NCBI GenBank assembly: GCA_902586195.1
Contig: CACIGF010000001.1
Coordinates: 124,001-188,000, forward strand
Length of the DNA stretch: 64,000 nucleotides
Reading direction: 5' to 3'
From: an uncultured beta proteobacterium
Lineage (GTDB): Bacteria; Pseudomonadota; Gammaproteobacteria; Burkholderiales; Burkholderiaceae_A
The position numbers and the translations under genes were made by a program. Numbering within the stretch: position 1 is the stretch's first letter; each line of letters opens with the position of its first letter. A model generated the notes under the pieces. The model saw nothing but the letters and a program-made list of their open reading frames with translations. It made no database searches and was not told the DNA's origin. Of this stretch, positions 14,098 to 16,074 are shown in pieces.

Positions 14098-14742
14098 GTG
14101 TCGAATAATTTTGAGGAAACGATAAGAAGCATAGGTTTATTTGGTGGGGTTTTTGATCCTGTCCATCGGGCTCATATTAAAATGGCTAAAATGGCAGCTG
14201 ACCAATTGAGGTTAGACACCGTAAGATGGATTCCTGCCGGAAATCCAGCACATAAGGAGATTGACACCGCAGCGAAGCATCGTTTAAAAATGTTACAAAT
14301 TGCTCTAAAAAATTTAAACGATGAGCGCATGGTGATTGATCATAGGGAATTGAGTAAGAGTAGTTCTAAACCCTCCTATACCTGCGATACTATAGAGTCG
14401 TTAATGGAGGATTTTCCCAAAAAAAGATTTTTTTGGATCTTAGGGGAAGACCAGCTTCTAAAATTTAAAAGTTGGAAAAATTGGAAATGGCTACTGGGAA
14501 ATCTAGTTTTAGTGATCTGTCAAAGGCCAGACGATAAGATTAAAGAAAAGAAAGGCTTTAGTTATTTGAGTGAAACAATTAAAAGCCTGGAAGAATACGG
14601 GGGTAAAATCATGGTGCTTGACGTGAGCCCTGATAATGTTTCATCGTCATGCATAAGAAATTTTATTGGAAAAAGGAAGGATCCTCTTGATAGGTTAGAT
14701 AAGGAGGTTTATGAGTATGCAAAGAAAAATAATCTATATTAA
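14098..14742 (+). CDS. nadD: Nicotinate-nucleotide adenylyltransferase NadD
   Basis: NadD transfers AMP from ATP to nicotinate mononucleotide, giving deamido-NAD, downstream of the NadB-NadA-NadC route also encoded here. The 214-residue protein has the nucleotidyltransferase motif GGVFDPVHRAH at residues 16-26 and the second ATP-contact motif SSSCIRNFIG near the C-terminus. The first motif has Arg-Ala where many relatives have (x)Gly before the second His, a mild deviation. The start is taken as the GTG at 14098; no ATG lies before the nucleotide-binding motif. It is followed by rsfS after 21 bases, the gene pair found in many proteobacteria. Confidence 0.94.
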   Translation: MSNNFEETIRSIGLFGGVFDPVHRAHIKMAKMAADQLRLDTVRWIPAGNPAHKEIDTAAKHRLKMLQIALKNLNDERMVIDHRELSKSSSKPSYTCDTIESLMEDFPKKRFFWILGEDQLLKFKSWKNWKWLLGNLVLVICQRPDDKIKEKKGFSYLSETIKSLEEYGGKIMVLDVSPDNVSSSCIRNFIGKRKDPLDRLDKEVYEYAKKNNLY

Positions 14743-14763
14743 GACTAAGAGGAGATAGAAAAT

Positions 14764-15084
14764 ATTTCTAAGACTTCATTAGAAAAAATAATTATCAGTG
14801 CCCTTGAAGATATAAAGGGCCAGGATATTGTCGCAATTGATACGACCACAAGATCTAATTTTTTTGATAAGGTTATTATTGCAACAGGAATTTCGAATCG
14901 TCAGACACGCGCTTTAGCAAAATCTGTTATCGAAAAGGTTAAAGCGAATAATCAAGTAATTATTGGTGTCGAAGGAATAGAGACAGGAGAATGGGTACTC
15001 GTTGATTGTGGTGATATAATTTGTCATGTTATGACACCAACCATAAGGGAATACTACAAATTGGAACAATTGTGGGATTCGTAA
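14764..15084 (+). CDS. rsfS: Ribosomal silencing factor RsfS, with a probable AUU start codon
   Basis: RsfS binds ribosomal protein uL14 and blocks subunit joining under starvation. The 106-residue frame contains DIKGQDIVAIDTTTRSNFFD, then IGVEGIETGEWVLVDCGDII, then HVMTPTIREYYKLEQLW, a full match to the family. From the in-frame TAA at 14746 onward there is no ATG, GTG or TTG until an ATG at 15028, near the end of the gene. The ATT at 14764 has GGAG at 14751-14754, nine bases upstream. Counting from it, 17 residues precede KGQD, the same spacing as in E. coli RsfS. An ATA at 14755 is a worse-spaced alternative. It follows nadD by 21 bases and converges on acuI. Confidence 0.9.
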   Translation: MSKTSLEKIIISALEDIKGQDIVAIDTTTRSNFFDKVIIATGISNRQTRALAKSVIEKVKANNQVIIGVEGIETGEWVLVDCGDIICHVMTPTIREYYKLEQLWDS

Positions 15085-15096
15085 TCGTGCTTTAGC

Positions 15097-16074
15097 TTAA
15101 CTTTCCTGTATTCTTAAAACTAACCTTCCTGTCACTCTGTTTTCGATCAGTCGCCCAGCGAGGTCTAGAATATCTTTAAATTGATACTCTGTTGAAATAT
15201 TATCGAGATCGTAATCCGTTAAACACTGCGCCAAAAGCTCCCATGCTCTTTTTTTATTGGCAATCGTTTGGTATACGCTGTCCAAACCAAATAAGTTAAT
15301 ACCACGTAGAATAAATGGGGCAACGCTAGTCGGAAAGTCCATACCCTGTGCGTTGCCGCAGGCCACTACGGCACCCCCCGCAAACGTATGTGCACAAACA
15401 CCTGCCAGAGCCTTACTCCCTAGGGTGTCGATGGCACCTATCCATTTTTGTTGATCAAGAATTTTTGCTGAATTGAGAGTTGAAGTTTCGATAATTTCTT
15501 GTACACCGAGATTTTCAAGAAATTCGACGTTTTCTTTATTAGAAGTAGCTCCAATCACATGAAAACCTAGTTTTTTTAATAGAAGAATTGAGATCGTTCC
15601 GACACCGCCTGAAGCTCCTGTAACTAGGATTTTCCCAGACTCTGGCGTCAATCCGAAGTCTCTTAATTTAAGTAACGCCATACTCGCCGTCAGTCCAGCT
15701 GTACCGCACTGCATAGCATTTTTCATCGTAAACCCGCTCGGGATATTTAGCAAAAAAGAAGCATCGACCGACGCAAGTTCAGAGTGACCCCCCCAAAATT
15801 TTTCACCCATTCCAAAACCGGTCATCAAAACTTTACTACCCTCTCTAAATCCTGAGGAGGGATCGTTAAGAACAGTCCCAGAAAAATCAATTCCTGTAAC
15901 CATCGGGTATTTTCTAATTATAGGTTTTCCATGAAGGATTGCTAAACAATCCTTGTAGTTTAAAGTTGAGTACTCGACTTTAACGAGCACTCCATCTCGA
16001 CGTAGAACATCTTCAGACAATTCCGATATTCGGGGTTTGTCATTTTCACTATTAATAAGTAAGGCTCTAAACAT
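15097..16074 (-). CDS. acuI: Acrylyl-CoA reductase AcuI (YhdH family)
   Basis: This 325-residue zinc-independent medium-chain reductase reduces acryloyl-CoA to propionyl-CoA with NADPH. The function is used in DMSP and acrylate metabolism, and as a detoxification step. Family features are the N-terminal STLNYKDCLAI and the PMVTGIDFSGTV segment, then TGFGMGEKFWGGHSELA, the NADPH motif VTGASGGVGTISILLL at about residues 150-165, and GAIDTLGSKALA. Length and register match E. coli AcuI (324 residues). No DMSP lyase is seen nearby, so a general protective role is as likely as DMSP use. It is divergent from nadA over 60 bases and converges with rsfS at 12 bases. Confidence 0.92.
   Translation of the reverse strand: MFRALLINSENDKPRISELSEDVLRRDGVLVKVEYSTLNYKDCLAILHGKPIIRKYPMVTGIDFSGTVLNDPSSGFREGSKVLMTGFGMGEKFWGGHSELASVDASFLLNIPSGFTMKNAMQCGTAGLTASMALLKLRDFGLTPESGKILVTGASGGVGTISILLLKKLGFHVIGATSNKENVEFLENLGVQEIIETSTLNSAKILDQQKWIGAIDTLGSKALAGVCAHTFAGGAVVACGNAQGMDFPTSVAPFILRGINLFGLDSVYQTIANKKRAWELLAQCLTDYDLDNISTEYQFKDILDLAGRLIENRVTGRLVLRIQES

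Follow-up and report, generated by a model that had tools for sequence, protein, structure and literature searches.

A probable AUU start codon of rsfS in a small marine clade of Burkholderiales

Where does translation of rsfS begin when its reading frame offers no ATG, GTG or TTG near the beginning of the protein? This is the question raised by the ribosome-silencing factor gene in the window (the whole 64,000-nucleotide stretch that was analysed), for which the sequence-only reading had proposed an AUU start. Comparison with related genomes bears this proposal out: conservation in four species, the placement of the Shine-Dalgarno sequence and the homologous starts of relatives indicate that rsfS almost certainly starts at AUU in a small marine group of Burkholderiales. 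The best explanation overall, to which we give a probability of about 85%, is a functional rsfS gene with an AUU start, a strong Shine-Dalgarno sequence and low, IF3-sensitive synthesis.

The rsfS frame downstream of nadD

The rsfS gene lies immediately 3' of nadD on the same strand (Table 1), and profile search identified both products: NadD scored 149.5 bits against TIGR00482 (cut-off 112.45), and RsfS scored 113.8 bits against TIGR00090, above the curated threshold of 56.9, and 103 bits against PF02410 (cut-off 21.6). The RsfS protein is full-length, covering positions 3-99 of the 99 in the TIGR00090 profile, and is the only match to its family in its own assembly (G000; 1.13 Mb, 40 contigs, 70.7% complete). 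From the nadD stop, the sequence reads TAA, GAC, TAA, GAG GAG ATA GAA AAT ATT TCT AAG ACT TCA TTA. After the second TAA the frame contains no ATG, GTG or TTG until an ATG near the gene end, at codon 95 of 111 in the stop-to-stop frame, with no canonical start in the 94 codons before it. Because the first canonical ATG comes only at this point, a truncated canonical rsfS start is not possible. The absence of canonical codons had been noted before and stands, but not its limit at position 15028, which is GTT; the ATG is at 15031. An ORF list restricted to the three canonical codons contains no rsfS ORF, and gene finders limited in the same way would truncate or miss the gene. Two further details of the sequence-only reading proved correct: GGAG (14751-14754) stands nine bases before the A of the ATT, and the spacing to the KGQD motif is as in E. 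coli, with K18-G19-Q20-D21 in both.

Table 1 Coordinates of the features discussed (window positions unless a contig, C1 or C2, is named; L, locus)
Feature	Position	Strand	Remark
nadD (nicotinate-nucleotide adenylyltransferase)	14098..14742	+	GTG start; TAA stop 14740-14742; in the rsfS frame
Second in-frame TAA	14746..14748	+	final stop ahead of rsfS; read directly
Shine-Dalgarno AGGAG	14750..14754	+	9 bases 5' of ATT; predicted anti-Shine-Dalgarno duplex -9.1 kcal/mol
ATAGA	14755..14759	+	with GGAG, invariant across four species
ATT, proposed rsfS start codon	14764..14766	+	ATT in four species; aligned to ATG/TTG/CTG starts of relatives
rsfS coding sequence, 106 aa	14764..15084	+	stop TAA 15082-15084; TIGR00090 and PF02410
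ATG, first in-frame canonical start codon	15031..15033	+	deep within conserved protein; not usable as start
Quinone-oxidoreductase-like gene	15097-16074	-	convergent with rsfS
infC	C2:40271-40792 (L077)	-	no ATG/GTG/TTG
rfbD-like reductase gene	C1:119293-120210 (L208:2293-3210)	-	57 codons without canonical start
FAD-linked oxidase gene	C1:117826-119295 (L208:826-2295)	+	first canonical codon at 26-27
rpiA	C1:256668-257345 (L249:11168-11845)		ATG one base out of frame across poly-A

Since nadD and rsfS share one frame and only five codons separate the last stop from the ATT, a NadD-RsfS fusion made by stop-codon read-through would be the most direct way to do without a start codon. However, the window has two in-frame copies of TAA, a stop codon that works efficiently, the gap contains a conserved Shine-Dalgarno sequence and the codons directly around the ATT are variable; the two stops and the conserved Shine-Dalgarno sequence rule this scarcely credible fusion out. 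Entry by frameshift from an overlapping mini-ORF (ATGCAAAGAAAAATA..., ending with TAG at 14756-14758) was also rejected, because this ORF ends earlier in G001 and the rsfS frame can be entered only after 14748. A search of the plasmid collection gave no match. The quinone-oxidoreductase-like gene that faces rsfS is also found 3' of rsfS in loci L097-L099; rlmH, which is the gene after rsfS in many proteobacteria, does not follow it here.

The ATT codon in the genus and the start position in relatives

Six of the seven other genomes of the genus contain rsfS. Three of them (G001, G003 and G006, corresponding to the betaproteobacterial, separately assembled Burkholderiaceae bacterium MED-G174, AH-287-N17 and AH-736-P17) share the arrangement exactly: an in-frame TAA, GGAGATAGA, three variable bases and TATTT with the ATT in frame, again with no canonical start. 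A check in related genomes had been recommended, and because three separately assembled relatives agree, the ATT is not a local sequence error. The incomplete and fragmented assembly might have suggested an error of sequence or assembly, or a decayed gene, but the same arrangement in three other genomes and pairwise dN/dS values of 0.04-0.12 among the four ATT species make this the least probable of the explanations considered, and RsfS is under strong purifying selection in these species. Synonymous sites are close to or at saturation relative to G003 (0.66-0.74 differences per site), yet the ATT is identical, and the codons that vary among the four species include codon -1 and all of codons 2 to 5. 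The identity of the ATT alone is modest evidence, because 26 of the 105 codons from 2 to 106 are equally invariant in the four species; the weight is carried by the coincidence of the ATT with the conserved Shine-Dalgarno sequence and the homologous start position.

At the position aligned with the ATT, two genus-mates (G002 and G007) have TTG, the sister genus has CTG in four species (G008, G010, G012 and G014) and almost all other sampled Burkholderiales have ATG. The rsfS start in this family is ATT, CTG, TTG or ATG, depending on the species. In G007, GGAG stands nine bases before the TTG, the same spacing as for the ATT of the window. When sampling was widened to 90 loci, mainly at class level, the nearest canonical codon was ATG in 82. 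Only two loci lacked a canonical codon between -8 and +4: that of G014, which belongs to the family, and one with ATG at -14 and +5. Because this wider sample and the other Burkholderiales have nearly all ATG, non-canonical rsfS starts appear to be a feature of this family within the sample examined. Weak starts as a trait of the rsfS gene as a whole are ruled out, as nearly all sampled Burkholderiales and class-mates outside the family use ATG. In the sister genus, rsfS (loci L041, L042, L038 and L039 of G008, G010, G012 and G014, respectively) is apparently CTG-started, with a clear Shine-Dalgarno sequence in three species and with the CTG overlapping the nadD stop as CTGA in G014. No rsfS match was found in 10 of the 26 family genomes (G005, G011, G015-G021 and G024), including G011 at 98% completeness, and rsfS loss in part of the family is possible.

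Initiation signals and other genes without canonical starts

The 3' end of the own genome's 16S rRNA carries GGATCACCTCCTT, a canonical anti-Shine-Dalgarno sequence. The predicted Shine-Dalgarno duplex at the ATT is -9.1, -9.1, -7.4 and -8.7 kcal/mol in the four species; it is strongest when the start is taken at codons -1 to 2 and is about 0 at codon 10, the next shared ATT. A start at another weak codon, either the ATA at -3 or one of the ATT/ATC codons at positions 10 and 11, has in its favor that these AUN codons are in frame in all four species. Nevertheless, the ATA touches the Shine-Dalgarno sequence with zero spacing, and codons 10-11 have no Shine-Dalgarno sequence and would drop residues found in nearly all relatives, which makes these positions very unlikely starts. 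The initiator tRNA has a canonical anticodon arm (GGGCTCATAACCC) in G001, G003, G006 and others; its gene was not found in the window's own assembly, which is 70.7% complete. No altered anti-Shine-Dalgarno sequence or initiator tRNA was found as a cause of the AUU start in the own 16S and the relatives' initiator tRNAs. The IF3 sequence is intact. Two substitutions were noted, Y70F, found in the AUU species, and L74R, present in most of the family (E. coli numbering); neither is clearly meaningful. No conserved leader or regulatory structure was found at the rsfS start, because the predicted pairing and folds of this region differ among the four species.

The rsfS gene seems not to be special in its AUN start. 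We scanned 312 genes common to 459 kb of the own genome (sampled stretches) and G001, and in rsfS, infC and an rfbD-like gene the coding-like conservation extended well 5' of all canonical codons. In the rfbD-like gene, ATT YTR AAG is kept in G000, G001 and G003 and overlaps the stop of the upstream gene. The adjoining FAD-linked oxidase gene has a conserved AAAGGTAGAAYAAA followed by ATA, after AAAGGT, as read in three species, and ATA is its most plausible start. The lack of canonical start codons in infC is shared by five genomes of the same genus, and the gene probably starts at ATA (AUA) in these genomes. Because infC has no canonical start in the same genomes and in much of the order, these cells are probably able to initiate at AUN codons as a matter of course. 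Three to four clear AUN cases among 312 orthologues, versus none clear among 81 in another Burkholderiales genus, are too few to separate the clade statistically.

How AUU may act on RsfS synthesis

AUU pairs poorly with the CAU anticodon and is a codon that IF3 rejects. In the explanation that we prefer, the 30S subunit would be placed by the strong Shine-Dalgarno sequence, and the ordinary initiator tRNA would pair with AUU through two base pairs and a third-base mismatch, so that RsfS should begin with fMet. Ribosomes ending nadD probably feed the rsfS start in part, because the AUU lies only 21 bases past the nadD stop (15 in G001, G003 and G006). The strong Shine-Dalgarno sequence would offset the weak codon, RsfS synthesis would be kept low, and it would rise when IF3 discrimination falls, as for infC. 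We infer the nadD coupling, the low RsfS level, the IF3 sensitivity and any physiological use. IF3 sensitivity is likely for any AUU start, given the behavior of other non-canonical starts (PMC5472188, PMC9410913). In a cell-free system, the full-length fraction obtained from AUU with CAU dropped with rising IF3 (PMC10158994), and IF3 overproduction lowers re-initiation, less so with a Shine-Dalgarno sequence (PMC2268962). As AUU is the codon classically sensitive to IF3, initiation fidelity may plausibly be linked to the RsfS level, and the use of AUU as a regulatory switch is a hypothesis.

The main rival to low, IF3-sensitive synthesis accepts the AUU start and concerns its purpose: the codon would be the outcome of drift, or of mild selection that keeps RsfS low, and would carry no regulatory meaning in a marine lineage with small genomes. 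Across the family, the ancestral ATG would have given way to the weaker TTG, CTG or ATT, with some members apparently losing rsfS. We put the chance of this somewhat below even. The variation of the start codon among species, the family genomes without an rsfS match, the AUN starts on other genes of the clade and the conserved poly-A frame break of rpiA speak for drift, but four species retain the ATT despite high synonymous divergence and changes in neighboring codons, which suggests that it is held in place, and a better start codon was one step away. IF3 keeps the subunits apart from the 30S side, and the hallmark of the RsfS family is uL14 binding that prevents subunit joining. RsfS blocks this joining from the 50S side (PMC3400551, PMC7125091, PMC9503621). 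Because the two factors act on opposite subunits, a compensating RsfS-IF3 link is conceivable. A dedicated circuit, in which rsfS and infC are co-regulated through their AUN starts and RsfS rises to substitute for scarce IF3, would agree with a probable AUA on infC and AUU on rsfS in the same genomes and with the repression of non-canonical starts by IF3 in other bacteria (PMC5472188, PMC9410913). However, AUN starts are also found on genes unrelated to ribosomes, and rsfS has CTG, not AUN, in the sister genus and ATG in most Burkholderiales. We consider such a circuit unlikely; the AUN starts on unrelated genes and the CTG of the sister genus make drift, or simple down-tuning, no less likely. 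Still more doubtful is a wider group of AUN-started genes sensed by IF3 (infC, rsfS, the rfbD-like gene and the FAD-linked oxidase gene), with RsfS rising as IF3 falls, which, if true, would link ribosome silencing to initiation fidelity. Because further apparent AUN starts are present, the clade is a useful set for studying the effect of IF3 discrimination on the expression of real genes.

Apart from infC, genes that naturally start at AUU are extremely rare, and rsfS would add an example that evolved naturally in a gene for ribosome silencing: it has no usable ATG, GTG or TTG, and four species of one genus have AUU at the homologous position with a spaced Shine-Dalgarno sequence. The rarity of AUG-to-AUU switches in annotated genomes counts against an AUU start of rsfS: across 36 groups of related prokaryotes, one of 61,358 AUG starts had switched to AUU, and no AUU switch was listed among 2,468 UUG starts (PMC5622118). 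In E. coli, infC and pcnB are the only two natural AUU starts counted, with infC controlled by IF3 (PMC9410913). The infC gene (AUU/AUC/AUA) and rsfS here both have AUN starts and encode subunit-separating factors, but infC in E. coli is controlled by its own product, and canonical infC starts are missing in much of the order, whereas AUN on rsfS is confined to one clade. Like rsfS here, pcnB is a non-infC gene with AUU, which limits its translation (PMC9410913), but its function is unrelated and its start is proven by experiment, while ours is read from sequence. The sigR gene of Streptomyces resembles rsfS in its lineage-conserved non-canonical start, strong Shine-Dalgarno sequence and operon position, but its codon is GTC, and its repression by IF3 is known from experiment (PMC5472188). 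The rsfS gene itself also has a weak start in E. coli, UUG, which is canonical though weak, whereas AUU is not (PMC10917681). This UUG report was found in our literature search on rsfS and start codons, and in the portions of the literature available to us we noticed no report of AUU.

A different kind of frame problem was observed in rpiA, which the 312-gene scan also brought up and where the out-of-frame ATG is shared by G001, G003 and G006. The poly-A run has 11 A, but 9 A in G003, and the G005 version is in frame; rpiA looks like a conserved case that would need slippage or frameshifting at the poly-A.
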